This document shows positions 11,790 to 30,510 of a stretch of 64,000 bases of DNA, in pieces; position 1 is the stretch's first letter, and every line of letters begins with the position of its first letter. Under the pieces are notes generated by a model, which worked only from the letters and a program-made list of their open reading frames with translations, had not been told where the DNA came from and ran no database searches. The stretch is from an uncultured Paracoccaceae bacterium (GTDB lineage: Bacteria; Pseudomonadota; Alphaproteobacteria; Rhodobacterales; Rhodobacteraceae), in the NCBI GenBank assembly GCA_947500775.1, contig CANMTD010000001.1, positions 620,001 through 684,000 on the forward strand, given 5' to 3'. A program made the position numbers and the translations under genes.

Positions 11790-12887
11790 TCATATATCCA
11801 ATTGTTTTCTAACGGAAATAATTTCAGTTACTGGATAGTTGACAGATTTTTGCCTGAAATCCCATCCGTGATCAAACAGACGCTGAGCCAGATCGTCGGG
11901 GGCCAGTTTGCGATATCGGTTTGCCATGTCGGCCTTTGACCATCCGCCAAGATCCATCAAGCCCCCAAAATCCATCGTTTGCGCGTAATACCATGTCGCC
12001 CAGGTGTGGCGCAGAACGTGCGGTGTGACGTCGGGGCCAAGTCCTGCCGCGTCGCGCGCCTTGTTGAACGCCGTCTGCATTTGCCCGCCGCCGTTCGATC
12101 GCATTGCGATTGGTTTTCCGTATGGCGTGCGAAACATCCGTCCGACTTCGGGTGTCTCGCCCATCATGGTTATGGTGCGTGTAGGTAACCGGACCCATCG
12201 GGCGGCGCTTTTTGTCTTTCCTGCGCCGGTAACTGTGGCCGGTATCCAGAGTTGACGCGTGGCAGGGTTCCAGTCCTTCACCTCTGCGGCAAAGCATTCA
12301 CCGGTGCGGCATCCGCTTCCCAAAAGAAATGCAATTTTTGCCAGCGTGAATGGTTCAGGTGATGTGTGGCGCGGTAGGCAAAGTTTTGCGGCGGCCGCCA
12401 GCAGATGTTCGGCCTCTTCCGGTGTCAGCCACCGGATGCGCGCCTTGTCGGTTGATGGTCTGCGTCTTTCGCCCCGCGCCCAACGGACCACTGCGTTCAT
12501 CGGAACGCGAACCTGGCGCCGATGTGTATCCGGCGCGCAGTCTGGATACAGGGTTATTGCGGTATCGGCGATAAGTGCTTCGTCGATATCCTCGATCATC
12601 TGGTCCATGCCAAGGTGCCGCATGATCGGCGGCAGAAATCGCGCCTCGCCCCCGTCCTCAATATATCCCCGCGCGGCTTTGAAAAACGGGGTTCCGGGTT
12701 TGGGAATTACCGGATTGAGGTGACGTTCCCATTCGTCTTTGTATATTTTTCGGGCTTTTTTTCGTGCGATCGCTTTGTCGCTTTTCGTGCGAACGCCAAT
12801 GCGGCGGCGAATTCTGTGGCCTTCGACGGTAAAGTCGACTTGCCAGACGCCTGCTTTGTCGTTCCATTCGGGTTCCCAATCCGGCAA
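11790..12887 (-). CDS. Tyrosine integrase of the prophage
   Basis: A 365-residue site-specific recombinase that catalyses attP x attB exchange. The N-terminal arm-binding strand region (WQVDFTVEGHRIRRRI) is followed by a core-binding domain and a catalytic domain with Arg194 (CRTGE), His290-x-x-Arg293 (HVLRHTWATW), Trp316 (GGWSK) and the nucleophile Tyr325 (MANRY). It starts at TTG with GGAAGG upstream. It ends 8 bp from attL and overlaps the upstream small gene by 181 bp. Confidence 0.95.
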   Translation of the reverse strand: MPDWEPEWNDKAGVWQVDFTVEGHRIRRRIGVRTKSDKAIARKKARKIYKDEWERHLNPVIPKPGTPFFKAARGYIEDGGEARFLPPIMRHLGMDQMIEDIDEALIADTAITLYPDCAPDTHRRQVRVPMNAVVRWARGERRRPSTDKARIRWLTPEEAEHLLAAAAKLCLPRHTSPEPFTLAKIAFLLGSGCRTGECFAAEVKDWNPATRQLWIPATVTGAGKTKSAARWVRLPTRTITMMGETPEVGRMFRTPYGKPIAMRSNGGGQMQTAFNKARDAAGLGPDVTPHVLRHTWATWYYAQTMDFGGLMDLGGWSKADMANRYRKLAPDDLAQRLFDHGWDFRQKSVNYPVTEIISVRKQLDI

Positions 12888-15587: not shown

Positions 15588-15917
15588 TCAAAATTCCCAC
15601 ACCCATCCGAGGCATCCCCCGGCGGCTGTGGCTGCTACGTCCTGCGCTTCGACGTGACCGCCTGTCATGCTGTCCAGCGCTTCTTTCCCCACGCCCACCA
15701 CAACAGCGGCCACACAGGCGTCCCGACGCGATCCACCGGCAGACCGAACAATTCCGTTTGCCGCGATCCCGGCACCGAAATGTCCCATCTTGTCGTTGTG
15801 CGATGCTTGCCCTGCGGCCATGACGCCATATCCCGCAGCAACGGTTGACACGCTGGATACAGATGCGTCGCAGGCTGACAGGGTGAGCAGGCATAGGAGG
15901 GTGCGGGCGAGGGTCAT
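15588..15917 (-). CDS. Small phage lipoprotein
   Basis: A 109-residue protein with a lipoprotein signal: MTLARTLLCLLTLSAC, lipobox LSAC. The mature part has DKMGHFGAG, GVGKEALD and ATAAGGCLGW, a pattern I have seen in small phage lipoproteins with a DKxxHF core. It may sit on the periplasmic face and act in superinfection exclusion, but this is inference. ATGA overlap with the adenine methylase gene. Confidence 0.65.
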   Translation of the reverse strand: MTLARTLLCLLTLSACDASVSSVSTVAAGYGVMAAGQASHNDKMGHFGAGIAANGIVRSAGGSRRDACVAAVVVGVGKEALDSMTGGHVEAQDVAATAAGGCLGWVWEF

Positions 15918-16738
15918 ATCAGCGCCCACTGCGTTTCTTCCGTGGGCGTGAAGTTCATCCAAAGAACTTCGGTTCTTTCCCGCGCGCCGTCAGCCAGCGC
16001 CTTTTTTTCCACGCGATGCCACCCTTGCAAGGTGTTGTCGTACACTTCAGACGGGTATCCGGACAGAACCACATGCCCGCTCAGATGTTTCAGGCATTCA
16101 AGCAAATCTGCATGATCGGCGTCCGACATCTCGTGCGCGTAGTCGGTGCCGGGATCGCGGGTGGCAGCGACATATGGCGGATCAACGTAGTGGACGGCGG
16201 CAACTTCATCATGTTCCAGCATGACGTCCACGGCGGGCTTGCTCTCGATCACAACCCCGCGCAGGCGGTCGGCTGCCTCACGAACGACCCAAGGCATGTC
16301 CGACCATCCGTGGACCGGCAGCGCACCGGCGCGCCTGCCTGCCGCGCGGAACCCGCTTTTTTTATGAATGCTGTTTGACCCAAACCCCATATGAGACTTG
16401 GATAGAAAGTTTAGTGCGTGTAGCAGGTCATCGGCGGTGTCCGAGTACGCGGACTCAAAAACCGCGCGCGAAAATGGGGTTGCTGCCACGGCGCGACACA
16501 GTGCGTCTGCATCGTCACGCAGCACTCTGAAAAACCGCACAGCCCCTAAATCAAGGTCGTTGTAAATTTCAAGCTTACTGCGTTGCTTCCTCATCAGGAC
16601 AGAGGCCCCGCCGCCAAATGGCTCAACATAAACGTCATGTTCTGGAAAGTGGCTTATGATCCACGGCGCAAGTCGCCACTTTCCGCCATGCCACCGCAGG
16701 ACGGGGCGCGTTGGTTTGTTGATCAGGGCGGGTGTCAT
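15914..16738 (-). CDS. DNA adenine methylase (D12 class, Dam-like)
   Basis: A 274-residue N6-adenine methyltransferase. WHGGKWRLAPWI is the D12-class N-terminal motif, VYVEPFGGGAS (37-46) binds S-adenosylmethionine, YNDLD follows, and VDPPY (185-189) is the catalytic motif IV. Phages use such enzymes to protect their DNA from host restriction. No restriction nuclease is next to it. It is coupled by ATGA to the cytosine methyltransferase gene. Confidence 0.9.
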   Translation of the reverse strand: MTPALINKPTRPVLRWHGGKWRLAPWIISHFPEHDVYVEPFGGGASVLMRKQRSKLEIYNDLDLGAVRFFRVLRDDADALCRAVAATPFSRAVFESAYSDTADDLLHALNFLSKSHMGFGSNSIHKKSGFRAAGRRAGALPVHGWSDMPWVVREAADRLRGVVIESKPAVDVMLEHDEVAAVHYVDPPYVAATRDPGTDYAHEMSDADHADLLECLKHLSGHVVLSGYPSEVYDNTLQGWHRVEKKALADGARERTEVLWMNFTPTEETQWALI

Positions 16739-17958
16739 ATCAGCACCCCCGTTTCTTCGGTCGCTTCGATGAATGTTTTCGCGACTTCCGGGTTGATTGC
16801 ATTGCCGTAGCCCCGCAAGAGTCCCACTCTGCCGGGTATCCCATCAGCCAGCGCGGAAGTGCCGGATTCAGCGGGCCGCCACTTTCCATCCCGGCAGAAG
16901 AGCCAGTCAGCATCTGCCCAGAAGCCGTTAGTCGGGCGGGGCCTATTTGTGATGCTGCTGTCTGTAGGTTGTAGCCGCCCTGCCTGCCCTGATGTCCAGC
17001 GCCTGTGCTGTCTGTCGCGGTCAGCGTCGGCCACCCCGCCAACGCCACAGTCTTGCGGCTGCTGTCCGTGTTGCCCGCAGGGCTGTTTCCGTTTCGTGCC
17101 GGGGTTCCAGCCATTGGCGTCGGCCATCCCGATAGGTGTGCGTCCGCAGGCAATGCGCCACCCGCTTGGTTCGGACCGCCGTTCGATCCGTCCGTTGCCC
17201 GCGGCGTGTTCCATCCTGCTAGAGTCGGGTCGCCCCGTATCGGGTCCAGGTAATCTATGGCCTCTGTTGTCATGGACTTTTGCGTCCCCTTGGTGTCGCC
17301 CCTCCGTCTTTGGTATCCCAAGCGACCCTCGTGCGCCTGTGGCGTTCCCCAGCCCGCCTGCGGCAAGTCCAAGATCGTCGGTCCTGAAAAAGAGCCGTTG
17401 GCGTATATTCGGTGAGCCGACGCCCGCAGCGCACAGATCGGCGGCCCGGAAGGCAATTCCCAATTTTTCCAGCGTAGCGCGTAAAGTGTAGAGCCACATT
17501 CGGCCAGCTTTGCTCGCAACCTGCTCTCCAAAGATGCTTGCAGGCCTGCATTGACCGATGAGACGTATGAACTCTGGGAGCAGGTGACGATCGTCACCGC
17601 GCCATTCGTCGCCACAATCGAGACAGACCCATCCGGCTGTAACGAGAGGATGCGAGAGACAGCTCTTTGCACCACAGCTAGGGCACTCGCTTCCTTTTCC
17701 TGCTGCCGAGAACGGCGGGCAGGGGCATGATCCTGTCCATACAGGTCTGTCGTCTGGCCACCCTGCTCGCCGGAGTCCGAGGGACCACCCCCCGATTCCG
17801 GCGAAGAAGTGGCACTGCCGAAACCCGGCAAGGTCATCTGGTTCGACATTCTCGATGCTCCTTTCATCAACTTCGCCATGGGCGATCTGCCTGGCGCGGA
17901 TCAGCTCCCGCAGCCATTCAGCCGCTTTCGGGTCGTTCTCGTTGTAGTAGGCGGTCAT
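16735..17958 (-). CDS. C5-cytosine DNA methyltransferase (outer frame)
   Basis: A 407-residue C5 methyltransferase of the phage type. Motif I is FFAGIGGWSLGL (51-62), the catalytic Cys80 lies in CPCPPFSAAGKG (motif IV), GEQV stands for ENV (motif VI), NIRQRLFF is motif VIII, and RVGLLRGYGNAINPEVA is motif IX/X at the C-terminus. A zinc-ribbon insert (Cys92, 95, 112, 115) follows motif IV. The region between VIII and IX is the target-recognition part and overlaps the second frame below. It likely protects phage DNA. Confidence 0.88.
   Translation of the reverse strand: MTAYYNENDPKAAEWLRELIRARQIAHGEVDERSIENVEPDDLAGFRQCHFFAGIGGWSLGLRRAGWPDDRPVWTGSCPCPPFSAAGKGSECPSCGAKSCLSHPLVTAGWVCLDCGDEWRGDDRHLLPEFIRLIGQCRPASIFGEQVASKAGRMWLYTLRATLEKLGIAFRAADLCAAGVGSPNIRQRLFFRTDDLGLAAGGLGNATGARGSLGIPKTEGRHQGDAKVHDNRGHRLPGPDTGRPDSSRMEHAAGNGRIERRSEPSGWRIACGRTPIGMADANGWNPGTKRKQPCGQHGQQPQDCGVGGVADADRDRQHRRWTSGQAGRLQPTDSSITNRPRPTNGFWADADWLFCRDGKWRPAESGTSALADGIPGRVGLLRGYGNAINPEVAKTFIEATEETGVLI
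16740..17849 (-). CDS. Overlapping second frame within the C5-methyltransferase gene (369 aa)
   Basis: This frame lies entirely inside the methyltransferase gene, on the same strand. Its ATG (17849) has its own SD, AAAGGAG, 8 bases upstream. The protein begins MTLPGFGSATSSPE, has CGSTLYALRWKNWELPSG and LRASAHRI, then repeated GW.TP units (GWGTPQ, GWNTPRATD, GWPTPMAG, GWPTLTATD), and ends LNPALPRWLMGYPAEW and SSKR. I recall this pattern as a separate phage protein family, sometimes labelled methyltransferase-associated. It stops 5 bp from the outer frame's stop. Function is unknown. Confidence 0.6.
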   Translation of the reverse strand: MSNQMTLPGFGSATSSPESGGGPSDSGEQGGQTTDLYGQDHAPARRSRQQEKEASALAVVQRAVSRILSLQPDGSVSIVATNGAVTIVTCSQSSYVSSVNAGLQASLESRLRAKLAECGSTLYALRWKNWELPSGPPICALRASAHRIYANGSFSGPTILDLPQAGWGTPQAHEGRLGYQRRRGDTKGTQKSMTTEAIDYLDPIRGDPTLAGWNTPRATDGSNGGPNQAGGALPADAHLSGWPTPMAGTPARNGNSPAGNTDSSRKTVALAGWPTLTATDSTGAGHQGRQGGYNLQTAASQIGPARLTASGQMLTGSSAGMESGGPLNPALPRWLMGYPAEWDSCGATAMQSTRKSRKHSSKRPKKRGC

Positions 17959-18659
17959 GCCGCCACCCTGAGCGCATATCCGCCCCACTGATCCGCAGCA
18001 GCGGCGGCGATGCCCAGGTACGTCATGCTGCGCTGCCTGCCCCGGTTCGGGCCAGGGCTGGCGCGGTGGACTACGGACCACTCGTTGTGTTCTTTCGTGC
18101 CCTTCTTTGGCGGCGTCAGTTTGTTCGTTGCGGTCAGCGGCGGCAGGCCGTTCAGGTAGAATGACGTGCCCTTGAAGGCCGGGTCACCAAACCACCATGG
18201 CTGTACTGTCTGCGCGGGGCGCTGGTAATTGGTGATCCGTTCGGCCCCGTATCGGTGCATGACCGGGTTTTCGATGGCGCGCATCGGGATCGGCGCGTTC
18301 CAGCAGTCCGAGAACAGTTGCGCGCCTGCATCCAGATGCGACCAGATCATTGCAAGCCGTGCTTCGCGATCAAGCCCCGGCCATGCTTCGGCCTCTTCCG
18401 GCGTGCAATCTGCGGGCGGGTTTTTCGGCGGGTTGTGCAGCCAGCGAACGCCCGAATTGCACAGCCTGGTGCAGGGCGGGTGCATTACACAGAGCAAATC
18501 CCAGCCGCCGTGCATAACCTCACGAATGTCCCCCTGGATGTGACGGTTTGTCTGGTCATCTGCGGGCAGGATGTCGCAGGACCACGCATCAAGTCCGCGC
18601 GCCAGAAATGCCCGACGCATCACACCTGATGTTTCGCAGCCGATCAGGACGCGGGTCAT
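17955..18659 (-). CDS. Phage Rossmann-type protein, cytosine-methyltransferase-like
   Basis: A 234-residue protein. It begins VLIGCETSGVMRRAFLARGLDAWSCDILPAD, a motif I-like start, then DLLCVMHPPCTRLCNSG, where PPC could match a catalytic motif IV, and AIENPVM, resembling ENP/ENV. It is often annotated as DNA methyltransferase in phages; a base-modification role is likely but not shown. ATGA overlaps join it to the C5 methyltransferase and the zinc-ribbon gene. Confidence 0.65.
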   Translation of the reverse strand: MTRVLIGCETSGVMRRAFLARGLDAWSCDILPADDQTNRHIQGDIREVMHGGWDLLCVMHPPCTRLCNSGVRWLHNPPKNPPADCTPEEAEAWPGLDREARLAMIWSHLDAGAQLFSDCWNAPIPMRAIENPVMHRYGAERITNYQRPAQTVQPWWFGDPAFKGTSFYLNGLPPLTATNKLTPPKKGTKEHNEWSVVHRASPGPNRGRQRSMTYLGIAAAAADQWGGYALRVAA

Positions 18660-21410: not shown

Positions 21411-22073
21411 TTATTTTATTTCTGGTGGTCGGAATGATGCGACGATCTTTGCCATGATCGCGTCGGTGTCGGGGTTGTATTTCAGCATGGTTGGTTTGTC
21501 ACCTGCCACGCTTAGATAGGGCGGTAGAAACGTGGCGATGTGGGTTTTTCCAGCCCCGGTTTCGGGGTCTATTCGAGTGAAGATGATGTCGTCACCTGGT
21601 TTCACGTCCGGGTTCACATCGCAGACAAGAACATCATCAATCTGGAGCATATAGCTGGGGGTGTTTTTTGCAGATACATAGAATGAAACCGACTTTACAT
21701 CGGGGGCCAGAACCTCTGCTACTTTCTGAAACTTATTGATTTGTTCAGGGTTTTGTTCTGGTCGAACGAAGGCGACATCGCCTTCGCCAAATCCATCTCG
21801 GTGGATCGCGAAGTCCGGTTTCGGGCGCGATGAAAACGCGCCTTCAAGAGTCGCTTCAAGCTGTTCTTTGGTTGTCCCAAACATGAGATATTGAACCGGA
21901 ACACGATATGCTTTGGCATACCTTTGCGCCGTGTCTATTTTAAATCCACGACTGCCATTTTCGTGACCTGCATATGTTGGGTAGCTCCAACCGAAGCGAT
22001 CAACCGCTTGTCGGATTGTTTTGAACCCAGCCCTTTCGCGGGCCTGTTTCAGACGCTCGTGCATATCACTCAT
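21411..22073 (-). CDS. CI-like phage repressor (HTH plus S24-type domain)
   Basis: A 220-residue two-domain repressor. The N-terminal HTH (LKQARERAGFKTIRQAVDRFGWSYPTYAGHENGSRG) binds operators; the C-terminal half looks like the LexA/CI S24 domain (PSYMLQIDDVLVCD, PGDDIIFT), where S-Y-M could hold the catalytic Ser, though the Lys partner is not certain. It should hold the lysogenic state by binding the five ATGC-N5-GCAT sites on both sides. A start at the second ATG (22064) fits the GAGG site better than 22073. Confidence 0.88.
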   Translation of the reverse strand: MSDMHERLKQARERAGFKTIRQAVDRFGWSYPTYAGHENGSRGFKIDTAQRYAKAYRVPVQYLMFGTTKEQLEATLEGAFSSRPKPDFAIHRDGFGEGDVAFVRPEQNPEQINKFQKVAEVLAPDVKSVSFYVSAKNTPSYMLQIDDVLVCDVNPDVKPGDDIIFTRIDPETGAGKTHIATFLPPYLSVAGDKPTMLKYNPDTDAIMAKIVASFRPPEIK

Positions 22074-23571: not shown

Positions 23572-24056
23572 TGGGGGTGCGTAAATATCGAGATATCAGG
23601 GTGCGCGGCGTCGTCTATCCAGATGTGGAATCCGCCGCTGCGGCGCTTAATGTTGGTCCGGAAACGGTGCGCTATGCAATCCGGGCGGGCACATTGCATC
23701 GTCTTGGAACGGGGCGGGTGGGGCCAGAGCCGATGCCGGTGCGGATTTCAGGCCGGAATTTCAAGAGTGTCGCGGCGGCGGCGGCGCATTTCGATGTTGG
23801 TGTGTGGGTGATTTACAGGGCGTTGGAAACTGGCGATCCCGACCGATTTCTGAGGCCCCGGCGGTGCAATCCGTGGAAATCCAAACCTTTCACCATCGGC
23901 GATCTGTCGTTTCCGTCGATGCGCGCGGCCAGCCGGGCCTTGGGGTTCAGCCCCAACTATATCTCTGTGGTGTGCAGTCGCGGATCGAAGCGCGGGTATG
24001 AACGTATTCTGGCGGCGGCGATGGCGCATCAGTCACAGGGCGGTGGCGCAGCATGA
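23568..24056 (+). CDS. Protein of three NUMOD1-like DNA-binding repeats
   Basis: 162 residues made of three repeats of about 45. Each has a strand ending in S followed by AA and a short HTH: YPDVESAAAALNVGPETVRYAI, FKSVAAAAAHFDVGVWVIYRAL, FPSMRAASRALGFSPNYISVVC (consensus f-S-x-x-x-AA-x-x-L). This resembles the NUMOD1 domain, usually attached to homing nucleases, but no nuclease domain is present here. It may bind DNA or replication proteins. Confidence 0.55.
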   Translation: MMGVRKYRDIRVRGVVYPDVESAAAALNVGPETVRYAIRAGTLHRLGTGRVGPEPMPVRISGRNFKSVAAAAAHFDVGVWVIYRALETGDPDRFLRPRRCNPWKSKPFTIGDLSFPSMRAASRALGFSPNYISVVCSRGSKRGYERILAAAMAHQSQGGGAA

Positions 24057-24787
24057 CAGGCAACAGATCATCCGCCGTGATGCAGCAGCGCAAGGAAGCC
24101 AAGGCCAGTCTGGATGATTTCCCAACGCCGCCTTGGGCCACGCGGGCGGTTTGTGAAAAACTTTTCGAACATGGCGAGGATCTGAGCGGCCAGCACGTTT
24201 GGGAACCCTGTTGCAACCGCGGCCATATGGCCGATCCGCTGGGCGAATATTTTTCCAGCGTGCATGCCACGGATGTCTGCGATTATGGATATGCGCGGCA
24301 GGCGGGCGTTGCCGATTTTCTGATCGATTGGGGGCAGGATGCGCCCGATGTCGATTGGGTGTTCGCGAACCCGCCGTTTACTTTGGGGGCTGAATTCATC
24401 GAACAGGGTCTGCGCGTGGCCCGGCGGGGCATTGCCGTTTTCGTCCGGTCGGCCTTTGTCGAAGGTCAGGACCGGTACGCCCGGTTGTTTCGCGACAGGC
24501 CCGAACGATTGTTCCTGCCGTTTGTCGAACGGGTGGTGCTGTGGAAGGGCGTGTTGCTGGACCCTGATGTCGCCATTCGGCGCTGGAATGAAAATCAGCA
24601 GGATTTCGTGATCGAAAAACCGACTTCGGCTACGGCCTATTGCTGGTTGATATTTGACAAGGATCATCAGGGTCTGGGGGGCATCGATCGCATTGCCCCC
24701 TGCCGCCATCGGCTGACCCGCGCCGGTGATTATCCGCCCGTGCCCGAACACCTGCGCATTCCAGAACAACCGGGGACGTTGATATGA
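24053..24787 (+). CDS. Phage DNA methyltransferase-like protein
   Basis: A 244-residue class I SAM fold. VWEPCCNRGHMADPL (49-63) is a motif I-like nucleotide-binding turn, VHATDVCDYG follows, and WVFANPPF (102-109) is the NPPF catalytic motif of N6-adenine or N4-cytosine methyltransferases. The C-terminus (RIPEQPGTLI) is typical of phage members. It is one of several modification genes of this phage and the only one on the rightward arm. Confidence 0.75.
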   Translation: MTGNRSSAVMQQRKEAKASLDDFPTPPWATRAVCEKLFEHGEDLSGQHVWEPCCNRGHMADPLGEYFSSVHATDVCDYGYARQAGVADFLIDWGQDAPDVDWVFANPPFTLGAEFIEQGLRVARRGIAVFVRSAFVEGQDRYARLFRDRPERLFLPFVERVVLWKGVLLDPDVAIRRWNENQQDFVIEKPTSATAYCWLIFDKDHQGLGGIDRIAPCRHRLTRAGDYPPVPEHLRIPEQPGTLI

Positions 24788-27904: not shown

Positions 27905-28513
27905 ATGGCCAGCGTAACGTCGACTGAATTGTCAAAGAGCCTGGGGGTCAGTGCGGGGCGGATCAGCCAATACGTTTCCGAAGGAAAGTTGGATGGTTGT
28001 TATTCGGGTTCGGGTCGACAGCGCCGATTTGATCTGGAGAAATCCTTTAGTGCGTTAGGTCGCCGCCTAGATAAAGGCCAGATGCTGGGGAACGGCGCAA
28101 AGACAAAGGCTGCGATTTCCGGGGCAGAACTTCGGCCTTCTACAGAGGGGCAGGGCGCAACCAAACTTTCGGACAATGATGGCGATGGCTACACGCTGGC
28201 GCGGACCCAAAAAACTCAGGAAGAGGCGCGCCGACTGCGGCGACAAAACGCAGAAAGCGAAGGCACCTATGTTCTGGCCAGCGAAGTAACACTGCAAACT
28301 CAGAAACTGATCGCGCAGGAAATCGCAGAGTTTGAATCGGTCCTGAGAGATGGTGCCCGAAAAATTGCCGACGACTTGGGCGTCGATTTCAAATCAGCCC
28401 GCGCGATATTGATTGATCAATGGCGGTCACATCGGGCGCGCAGGGCAGAGGCTCTGACAAAACGCGCAGCGTCGGGTTCCATGACGGATGCGGAAAAGGC
28501 GGCGGATATCTGA
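27905..28513 (+). CDS. Terminase small subunit (Nu1-like)
   Basis: A 202-residue DNA-recognition subunit of the packaging motor. It begins with a winged-helix HTH of the Nu1 type (ELSKSLGVSAGRISQYVSEGKL) and continues with helices and a coil (TQEEARRLRRQNAESEGTYV), as in Nu1 proteins. It starts DNA packaging by binding the cos/pac site. Its stop overlaps the large-subunit start (TGATG). Confidence 0.85.
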   Translation: MASVTSTELSKSLGVSAGRISQYVSEGKLDGCYSGSGRQRRFDLEKSFSALGRRLDKGQMLGNGAKTKAAISGAELRPSTEGQGATKLSDNDGDGYTLARTQKTQEEARRLRRQNAESEGTYVLASEVTLQTQKLIAQEIAEFESVLRDGARKIADDLGVDFKSARAILIDQWRSHRARRAEALTKRAASGSMTDAEKAADI

Positions 28514-30510
28514 TGGGTTTTTTGATTTCGGCATCTGTTGTCATCGCGGGTGCGATGGCACAAGCCATGACGCCGCCAGACCCTCCGGATATCACGCGGT
28601 GGTGCGAAGAGAACATCATATTTGATGAGAGATCGCCTTTACCCGGACCGTTCAATATCGACCGATTTGCTTTCCTGCGAGAAATTCATGAGGTGTTGTC
28701 ACCGGAGCATCCTTGCCGGGAAGTGACGGTTCGCGGATCGGCACAGATTGCCAAGACTGTGTCTGTGATTCAGCCAACGCTTGGTGCGTGGCATGAATAC
28801 ACCGCGCTGGATAGTCTGGTGGTACACCCGACGATGTCGGCTGCGACCGAATGGGTGGATAATAAATGGAAACCGATGCGGCGTCAGGCCCCCAGCCTGA
28901 ATCGCACTTTCGGCGACGGTCTGTCTGGTGACAATCGGGATGCTAAGTTCAACCAAGAGACCCTGGCACGCAACGGATCACTAAAGGTTGCATCTGCCGG
29001 ATCACCTGCCGATCTGACTGGAACCAGCCGCCGTCTGGTAATTATGGACGATCTGTCAAAATACGAAATGACGGACAAAGGTGATCCCGAAGCCCTGGCC
29101 GAAAGCCGGGCGTCCGGGTTCGAAGATGCCAAGATCGCCCGGATATCAACCGCGATGATCAAATCAACGTGCCGGATCACCCGCGCGTTTTCCCGCAGCG
29201 ATCAGAGATTTTACAATATGCCGTGCCCGCATTGTGGCAACATGGCACCCTTCACATGGGAGAATTTCCGCGCAAACATAAATCCAGAACGGTTGGGGTC
29301 TGCGTGTTTCAGTTGTGACAGTTGCGGCGGTGTGATCGGGCACGGTCATAAAGAACAGATGATATGTTCGGGGCGTTGGGTTGCGACCAACCCGAACGGC
29401 GATCACCCTGGATTTCACATCTGGCGGGCCTATGCACCCCAGCGGGATTGGGCGTCGATCGCGATTGAATATGCCAGATTGATGGGGTGGACCCGGATCG
29501 AAGGGTCGCAGGCGACGGCAGAAAGTGTCAAGAAGTCTGTCGAGGCGGAGACAGAACAAACCTTTTACAACGATGTTCTGGGGGAGCCGTTTGAACAGGC
29601 CAGCGATGCGCCGGATTGGGAGGCATTGCGCGACCGTATAGAAAACGCGGATGAGAATGACGACGGTCTTCGAATTCTGTCACAGGGTGTTGTCCCATCG
29701 AATGGCGTTTTGTTCACTGCGGGGGTCGATTGTCAGGATGACCGGACTGAGGTGCATTTTAAGGCGTTTGCCCGGAACCGTCGTCGGTGGACGGTCGATT
29801 ATGTCATCATCCCACATCATATCGGTAGCGACGATTGCCGATCCGCCCTGAACGCCCTTTTGAAAAAAGAATGGCGTACCGAATTTGGGCAGTCGCTGAA
29901 ACTGGACATGCTGGCGATCGATGGCGGGACATACACCGATGATGTCTGGTCGTGGGCAAAGACCCATCCGTGGTCGCGTGTCATCGTCGTAAAAGGATCT
30001 TCGACGCAGAACGGACCGCTGATGGTGCCAATGAAGTTTGAGCGGCGGAGTGATGGTCGGGCAAAGCGGCGGCAAAAACGGGGGTTCCTGCTGAACGTGT
30101 CGATGATGAAGGGCAACCTTTATGCATGGATGCGTATCGAGGACCCGGCAGAGCGTGGTTTTTCCCAATACCCGACCGGCTTGGGAGATGAGTTTTACCG
30201 CCAGATCACGTCTGAGGTCAAAGTCCTGAAACGCAGCCGGACAGGCGTGGTGACAGCATCGTGGGAGCTGGCAGAGCCGACCCGGCGCAACGAAGTTTTG
30301 GATACCGAACTGTATGCAGAGGCAGCCGCGCGGCGCAAAGGTTGGGCGTCCCTGACCGATGATCAATGGGACTCTCTGGAACATGAGCGCGGACAAAGCG
30401 CACCTGATGTGCAACCTGATTTGTTTGAAAAAACCGTCATTCCGGTTGCGGCAGAAAAGCCAAAACGCCGGACCGGGAAAAAGAAGCTATCGGAGATTTT
30501 AAATGGCTGA
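28513..30510 (+). CDS. Terminase large subunit (lambda GpA family)
   Basis: A 665-residue packaging ATPase-nuclease. The ATPase part has VTVRGSAQIAKT as the P-loop variant, VVHPT, and VIMDDLSKYE as Walker B. A zinc site follows (CPHCG and CFSCDSCGG). The nuclease part begins FTAGVDCQDDRTEV and has LAIDGGTYTDDVW, the two acidic clusters that cut concatemers. The C-terminus KRRTGKKKL is basic. It overlaps gpW by 8 bp. Confidence 0.93.
   Translation: MGFLISASVVIAGAMAQAMTPPDPPDITRWCEENIIFDERSPLPGPFNIDRFAFLREIHEVLSPEHPCREVTVRGSAQIAKTVSVIQPTLGAWHEYTALDSLVVHPTMSAATEWVDNKWKPMRRQAPSLNRTFGDGLSGDNRDAKFNQETLARNGSLKVASAGSPADLTGTSRRLVIMDDLSKYEMTDKGDPEALAESRASGFEDAKIARISTAMIKSTCRITRAFSRSDQRFYNMPCPHCGNMAPFTWENFRANINPERLGSACFSCDSCGGVIGHGHKEQMICSGRWVATNPNGDHPGFHIWRAYAPQRDWASIAIEYARLMGWTRIEGSQATAESVKKSVEAETEQTFYNDVLGEPFEQASDAPDWEALRDRIENADENDDGLRILSQGVVPSNGVLFTAGVDCQDDRTEVHFKAFARNRRRWTVDYVIIPHHIGSDDCRSALNALLKKEWRTEFGQSLKLDMLAIDGGTYTDDVWSWAKTHPWSRVIVVKGSSTQNGPLMVPMKFERRSDGRAKRRQKRGFLLNVSMMKGNLYAWMRIEDPAERGFSQYPTGLGDEFYRQITSEVKVLKRSRTGVVTASWELAEPTRRNEVLDTELYAEAAARRKGWASLTDDQWDSLEHERGQSAPDVQPDLFEKTVIPVAAEKPKRRTGKKKLSEILNG

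Follow-up and report, generated by a model that had tools for sequence, protein, structure and literature searches.

A prophage region in the genome of an uncultured Paracoccaceae bacterium (assembly GCA_947500775.1, contig CANMTD010000001.1) contains a C5 cytosine methyltransferase gene with a second long reading frame inside it, on the same strand and in another phase. The gene lies in a stretch of 64,000 nucleotides (positions 620,001 to 684,000 of the contig), which we call the window and within which all positions below are counted. From comparison with relatives, we consider it highly probable that each frame encodes one of the two subunits of a single, split C5 cytosine methyltransferase. 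The outer frame would specify a large chain, alpha, with motifs I–VIII and X, responsible for cofactor binding and catalysis and containing a poorly conserved stretch needed to reach motif X; the inner frame, read from its own Shine-Dalgarno (SD) site and ATG, would specify a second chain, beta, with motif IX and most probably the target-recognition part (the region of its GW.TP repeats). Alpha and beta would be translated from the same message, with separate starts and in different frames, and would assemble into one active enzyme, as in M.EcoHK31I. More speculatively, the overlap may keep the two chains together and in proportion.

The original prediction for this locus, made from the letters of the window, had described two conserved proteins, each read separately from over 1.1 kb of the same DNA. 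Its first part stands, as the overlap appears to be genuine dual coding, kept in phages and prophages. The separateness of the two proteins does not: the inner product seems to supply the missing motif IX (in some relatives motif X as well) of the same enzyme.

Arrangement of the two frames

The position, length and start signal first assigned to the inner frame are correct (369 codons, 16740–17849, inside the 407-codon C5 gene, with AAAGGAG 8 nt before the ATG), and its C-terminus does hold LMGYPAEW. Its repeats were described correctly in part: four GW.T(P/L) copies are present (inner residues 166, 212, 241 and 272), but only two of them face the ADA stretches of the outer frame with which they were said to coincide; a third outer ADA stretch faces the inner sequence ASGQMLTG. 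The outer chain, credited earlier with all methyltransferase motifs, has I–VIII and X and is without IX (motif names were assigned by this analysis). A second in-frame ATG lies upstream of the beta start, at 17879. The features of the pair are:

16735–17958, minus strand: outer gene (alpha), 407 codons, predicted C5 cytosine methyltransferase large chain with motifs I–VIII and X, without motif IX
16740–17849, minus strand: inner gene (beta), 369 codons, +1 relative to the outer gene, predicted motif IX chain and probable target-recognition part
17858–17864, minus strand: SD-like AAAGGAG, 8 nt upstream of the beta ATG
17847–17849, minus strand: beta start ATG, within the outer codons AAT GTC
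17409–17558, minus strand: conserved block of beta, about residues 98–147 (..GSTLYALRWK..LRAS..), over the alpha motif VI–VIII region, defined from alignments
17340–17354, minus strand: GW.TP repeat 1 of beta (GWGTP)
17202–17216, minus strand: GW.TP repeat 2 of beta (GWNTP)
17115–17129, minus strand: GW.TP repeat 3 of beta (GWPTP), facing outer MADAN
17022–17036, minus strand: GW.TP repeat 4 of beta (GWPTL), facing outer VADAD
16924–17382, minus strand: variable stretch of alpha, outer residues 193–345, where the beta frame is better conserved
16821–16871, minus strand: motif IX of beta, LNPALPRWLMGYPAEWD
16795–16806, minus strand: motif X of alpha, GNAI

The outer protein matches phrog_363 (E 1e-67) and reaches 20.2 bits (E 4e-4) against Pfam PF00145, below the cut-off of 22 and thus outside the single-chain family by that measure; its family profile aligns with HhaI over motifs I–VIII only (E 6e-18). 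The inner protein matches phrog_31772 (E 2e-34) and phrog_1008 (E 3e-22), as do all 107 members of the inner alignment. These two families, together with phrog_27243 and phrog_26627, which also match the inner protein, are labelled 'DNA methyltransferase' or unknown, and they look like second-chain families.

Selection on the inner frame

Searches of 50,697 phage records (tblastn) returned the inner protein in 210 and the outer protein in 228; in plasmid records the outer protein was found in 28 and the inner in 12. Among four records taken from the outer lists and absent among the inner rows shown, L581 and L582 (phage) and L583 (plasmid) have an open +1 frame that ends in an LMG- or MMG-type motif IX. 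The fourth, a copy on a Klebsiella aerogenes plasmid (L584), is disrupted in all frames, and parts of both chains can still be made out in it.

Each of the 55 viral loci fetched via the inner protein also has the outer protein, in the corresponding +1 phase. A set meant to be less biased towards the inner frame was obtained by fetching 80 viral and 80 genome loci via the outer protein (the best 80 of 597 and the best 80 of 258 relatives), with a query alignment, A1, that had been built from the window and from loci found via the inner protein; the same contig can recur in different scans (L232 and L373, for example). Three of these 160 loci were not full length. In the remaining 157 the inner protein is present in the +1 phase without exception, whereas the +2 frame is open in none (mean 13.3 stops). 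Counted to 30 nt before the outer end, the +1 frame has no stop in 108 of the 157, and in the majority of the remaining loci there are one or two close to that end, namely the inner frame's own stop.

Stop codons were then compared with those expected when synonymous codons are shuffled inside each gene, so that the outer protein and its codon usage stay the same; the first 150 and last 120 nt were trimmed. One further locus was not plain ACGT, leaving 156 relatives. Their +1 frames hold 6 stops against 464 expected, and 151 are open against 8.5 expected; the +2 frames under the same shuffling hold 1839 stops against 1622. Interruption of the inner frame in relatives with an intact methyltransferase, which the original prediction had named as a result that would speak against it, is therefore not the pattern found. 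Ordinary single-chain C5 methyltransferases (26 usable genes of 30 loci) gave 334 stops against 317 expected, with none of the 26 open, and single-frame phage C5 methyltransferases (20 complete genes among at least 120 matches to a motif IX DNA pattern) gave 171 against 251, with none of the 20 open. Because of the deficit of +1 stops and the excess of open frames, the inner frame is, on sequence comparison, selected for beyond what chance would give. Separately, the outer frame is interrupted and the inner still open in L005/L059, L020 and L027, through decay of alpha or sequencing error. In L003, L023, L034, L058 and L079 the inner frame continues past the outer stop into downstream sequence, in which no domain was recognised by eye, no family search having been made.

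The start signals of beta are likewise favoured beyond the needs of the outer frame. For this test one locus without the start motif was dropped, leaving 155 relatives; an ATG stands at the position of the window's beta start in 108 of them (51.6 expected under synonymous shuffling), and an SD 4-mer lies at the right distance in 76 (29.7 expected). Most of the 47 that have no ATG there have another in-frame start codon within 60 nt; L169 has none. Of 113 genes with a clear motif, 40 use AGG for the arginine at the SD site; elsewhere in these genes AGG makes up 8.7% of arginine codons.

A synonymous-site test, proposed with the original prediction, was also run and proved positive. Among 106 pairs of related genes (68 sequences; the pairs are not independent), differences before the overlap are distributed over outer codon positions 1/2/3 as.18/.13/.70, the usual single-gene pattern. 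Inside the overlap they become.25/.15/.60 in the catalytic motifs,.39/.30/.31 in the variable stretch and.37/.19/.44 at the C-terminal end, and the rate at the outer third position, 0.329 before the overlap, is 0.197, 0.363 and 0.121 in these three regions, respectively. In the variable stretch change thus peaks at outer position 1, which is the third position of beta, and identity there is 0.262 in the +1 frame against 0.207 in frame 0, even though the alignment was made from the outer protein. Taken together, these sequence comparisons indicate that both frames are under selection beyond what either one explains.

A pairwise comparison (400 random pairs from 131 sequences under 75% identity) found the +1 frame above its shuffled null in 400 of 400 pairs in each region, and the +2 frame above it in 398, 378 and 400 of 400. 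Since +2 also exceeds the null, we treat this test as weaker evidence than the stop counts and do not use it alone. The +2 excess is in keeping with a by-product of composition and outer constraint, in which GC-rich DNA leaves +1 open and the frame is conserved only through the outer protein. Such a by-product is barely credible given the contrast between the +1 and +2 stop counts, the lack of openness in single-chain enzymes, and a variable stretch where conservation is higher in the inner frame than in the outer and most change falls at outer position 1. We give almost no weight, too, to a constraint at the level of DNA, with the repeats as conserved sites (for instance the enzyme's own targets) that both frames follow passively. 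GGTGGCCGACGCC-like repeats do underlie both VADAD and GWPTP, but just two of the four repeats face ADA, and the inner start signals and the codon-position change (measured over the whole variable stretch) follow reading frames.

Co-occurrence of the two frames in genomes

A sample of 289 genomes of the window's class contained the inner profile in 8, the window's own included, and the outer profile in 62. In seven of the eight the outer protein lies at the same place and in the same phase (computed from coordinates); the eighth, G228, is without it, and there (L573:1-1329) a beta-like C-terminus, LNPEFVCWLMGFPKEWNDC, follows, in the same frame, a stretch resembling HNH_5 (E 3.7e-5, which does not reach the Pfam cut-off). 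The best 14 of the 62 outer-profile genomes were examined, the other 48 being weaker matches. A +1 beta is present in each of the ten best (lowest E 1.2e-18), seven recognised by profile and three (G068, G308 and G185) by frame reading. The next four (G281, G171, G111 and G004) encode single-chain enzymes of the ordinary type, in which motif IX is in frame and both other frames are closed. Almost all loci checked have their inner-family member lying across the frame of a C5 methyltransferase, L573 being the exception. Other forms of motif IX occur in a beta frame over alpha: LMGYPVEWTYL, AMGYPLGWSEL and MMGYPLAWNAL (L576, which is G185; L575, which is G308; and L583). Their sequences suggest further branches of the same arrangement.

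Division of motifs between the chains

The C-terminal end of the inner protein, LNPALPRWLMGYPAEWD, resembles C5 motif IX, as does RLTPKECERLQGFPDGWT in L453. A strict motif IX pattern, which allows L-N beside L-T and is to that extent fitted, occurs in none of the 157 outer chains, 91 of 107 inner chains, 76 of 82 inner chains of a second branch (described below) and 18 of 26 single-chain enzymes; a loose pattern occurs in 97 of the 107, all 82 and 20 of the 26, respectively. Motif X is found in 150 of the 157 outer chains and in 1 of the 107 inner chains. In profile comparisons (hhalign) with phage enzymes picked by a motif IX DNA pattern, the C-terminus of the window-type inner chain falls on their motif IX at E 0.0014, and inner chains holding both IX and X do so at E 1e-5.

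The second branch was found by seeking proteins with LMGWP near their end, which gave at least 120 loci among the matches listed. Its inner family is homologous to that of the window (hhalign 99.2%, E 1e-19) and likewise occupies the +1 frame of C5 methyltransferase genes, in most of which motif X reads GNGQV. Two chance pattern hits, L227 and L284, were removed before the stop test, and 83 of the 118 remaining listed loci had a whole alpha frame and entered it (15 were cut, 15 fell out for other reasons and 5 have X in beta). Their +1 frames hold 1 stop against 294 expected, and 82 of the 83 are open against 1.9 expected. In 74 of 102 listed loci of this branch (18 of the 120 being left out) the beta ATG stands 4 nt after the alpha start codon, in the other frame, so that one SD site could serve both chains. 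An example of the double start is ATGAATGAG (L219, L222, L223, L232, L234 and others), whose first codon starts alpha and whose ATG, 4 nt on, starts beta.

The position of motif X varies in this branch. Among the 120 listed loci, 112 have it in frame 0, 5 in the inner frame, 3 in neither and none in both; two of the three without it are the chance hits, and in the third, L217, GNGIVP appears further along frame 0. In L232, L240, L277 and L315 frame 0 ends directly after motif VIII and is followed by 4–11 stops before the site of IX, and the +1 protein carries WPTP-type repeats, LMGWP and motif X (RLKA.GNG) in one chain; L258, the fifth case, is truncated. A further scan of 80 loci (the best 80 of 555 relatives, sharing some contigs with the 120) found X in frame 0 with frame 0 open in 64, X in beta with frame 0 closed in 5, neither in 2, and 9 unplaced. 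The beta of L232 matches phrog_1008, an inner family, over residues 59–358 and, weakly (E 8e-4), the C-terminal part of phrog_363, the outer family. From the relatives with X in beta and these PHROG profiles we infer that members of the inner family serve as second chains of C5 methyltransferases, with X included in some phages and left to the first chain in others, the window among them. As alpha has nothing after motif VIII where X is in beta, the target-recognition region must there lie in beta. The window's own target recognition most probably lies in beta as well, given that the beta frame leads in conservation over that region.

Relatives of this kind also bear on programmed ribosomal frameshifting, in which translation would start in frame 0 and slip by +1 to yield a single chain with I–VIII, the recognition region and IX. 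One such slip would restore the linear order I–VIII, IX, X where frame 0 ends after VIII, and L295 and L308 hold the N-terminal motifs and LMGWP in one frame. We nevertheless think frameshifting very unlikely: any slip would lie downstream of inner-frame sequence that is conserved and free of stops and that has a selected ATG and SD site, and the window type would need a second slip back within about a dozen codons to reach X. Frames are joined in either direction in a few loci, N-terminal alpha motifs with the beta end in L295 and L308, and the beta N-terminus with motif X in L224 and L233; these are natural frame switches or sequencing errors.

Points against a split enzyme

Several observations weigh against two subunits of one methyltransferase. 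Pfam PF00145 gives no match to the inner protein at E<=1, and the loose motif IX pattern is present in 6 of the 157 outer chains. Against single-chain enzymes that had not been picked for it, the inner C-terminus falls on motif IX at E 0.11 only, and the chains with IX and X match at motif X only (E 0.25); the stronger E values given above rest on a comparison set chosen by a motif IX DNA pattern, over a short stretch. One or both frames are shifted in 3 of the 55 inner-fetched loci (L048, L050 and L052), and in G228 neither of the other two frames of L573 encodes a methyltransferase. The predicted structures are poor: AlphaFold2 models have a pLDDT of 59 for the inner protein (107-row alignment) and 52.5 for a second-branch beta (82 rows), too low for conclusions, and VIA-align of the inner model gave no match above Z 3.8, nearly all rows concerning residues ~87–156. 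Finally, the predicted recognition domain of M.EcoHK31I is placed in its large subunit in the passage of PMC3404938 that treats it, contrary to the assignment to beta made here.

Within the inner model, a helix (residues 98–118) and a beta-hairpin (123–130 and 138–145) are predicted, with block means of 83–90 over residues 101–140. Searched against solved structures, the inner profile gave nothing credible (best E 0.87).

One alternative is an unrelated phage protein, such as a regulator, an inhibitor or a nuclease, overprinted on the methyltransferase. In its favour, the inner frame is strongly conserved and starts independently; its long N-terminal part and GW.TP repeats are without a clear match among solved structures; and in L573 its C-terminus follows an HNH_5-like stretch with no alpha frame. 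Against it, motif IX, absent from the outer chain, is in the inner one, which in relatives also holds X where frame 0 has lost it and never alongside it, and the pair occurs together in all ten of the best outer matches among the 289 genomes. We consider an unrelated overprint improbable and keep to the split methyltransferase. Selection on both frames, selection on the beta start and the split of motifs are read from the sequences, and from these we infer that beta is translated in the prophage, that the chains associate, that both are needed and that beta recognises the target.

Genomic context

The window belongs to an assembly of 4.0 Mb, and the prophage region within it is marked by an integrase (11790–12887), a repressor (21411–22073) and a terminase large subunit (28420–30510). 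The immediate neighbours of the pair are:

15914–16738, minus strand: downstream D12-class adenine methyltransferase gene (PF02086, E 1e-19), its start overlapping the alpha stop (ATGA)
17955–18659, minus strand: upstream gene matching phrog_757, 'DNA methyltransferase' (E 4.5e-50), its stop overlapping the alpha start (ATGA)

Several methyltransferase genes thus lie in the prophage (15914–18659 and 24053–24787): the D12 adenine type, the C5 pair, and matches to phrog_757 and phrog_799. The outer protein has an insert of about 28 residues (17611–17694; CPSC...CLDC), zinc-ribbon-like (PF08274, E 0.11) and found in none of the other 26 rows of alignment A1; opposite it the inner protein is likewise longer. 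Two plasmid matches to the outer protein (26% identity, residues 23–191) adjoin an NgoMIV-family endonuclease.

Discussion

A wider proposal, which we favour by a small margin over its negation, is that a class of obligately dual-coded enzyme, so far undescribed, is very widespread in phages: a DNA-recognition half (the recognition region and motif IX) of a C5 methyltransferase is written over nearly all of a catalytic half, one branch has a double start 4 nt apart at which one ribosome-binding site could serve both chains, lineages differ in the frame to which motif X has moved, and the variable stretch of alpha is largely a passive read-through of the recognition chain. If so, a new specificity would come from change in one frame that the other has to pay for, and these genes would offer an unusually direct system for studying overlapping genes. 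To our knowledge, few cases are documented, small viruses aside, of a long same-strand overlap that is deeply conserved and whose two products are each conserved and can be assigned a function. The present case offers many sequences, two divergent branches, variants in which frame 0 ends after motif VIII, and a control region before the overlap within the same gene, which together make selection on two frames measurable.

The arrangement also has practical consequences for annotation, which varies: both frames are listed in K1ind2 and PhiXhv-28, one only in epsilon15, and some records label both 'DNA methyltransferase'. A second subunit can be overlooked where a record shows one frame or gives that bare label, and a codon-altered clone of the annotated gene would lose the partner and, if our model is right, activity. 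In the open-licence literature we found no description of this overlap in phage C5 methyltransferases; subscription papers lay outside that scope, and absence from print is not implied.

Among described enzymes, single-chain C5 methyltransferases of the HhaI and HaeIII type can be aligned with the window over motifs I–VIII; they differ in having IX and X in one frame, with +1 closed in those checked, whereas the window has no IX between VIII and X. The PHROG families matched by the two proteins (phrog_363 for the outer, phrog_1008 and phrog_31772 for the inner) carry the label 'DNA methyltransferase', which does not record that the inner is read across the outer. In Kagunavirus K1ind2 both overlapping frames are annotated, as ORF29 (a C-specific methylase) and ORF28 (an Mte8-like protein), with no subunit relation given; the Mte8-like protein is mentioned once in the part of PMC5582158 that concerns it.

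Two-chain enzymes come closer. M.EcoHK31I (YGGCCR) was reportedly described in 1995 as a two-protein enzyme. Its small-chain gene lies inside the large-chain gene in another frame, as observed in the window, and its small chain has 176 amino acids, compared with 369 in the window. The relevant passages describe a large chain with motifs I–VIII and X and a small chain with IX only (PMC3404938), and call the enzyme naturally split (PMC3439449); the window shares this division, its large chain being without IX and a second polypeptide having it, and differs in that recognition is assigned to the large chain there and, most probably, to the small chain here. In M.AquI (CYCGRG) the same source places IX and X together in the small chain (PMC3404938), a division found in the second chain of L232, L240, L258, L277, L315, L373–L375, L377 and L392; in the window X is in the large chain, which sets it apart from M.AquI. 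The five measured loci with X in beta overlap by ~440–500 nt in different frames, a matter on which the M.AquI passage is silent. We do not call the window a proven member of the M.EcoHK31I sequence family, because the two were compared by description and not by sequence. We take the window's pair to be a new member of the kind of enzyme that M.EcoHK31I represents, a known kind, but one whose extent and regularity here are surprising.

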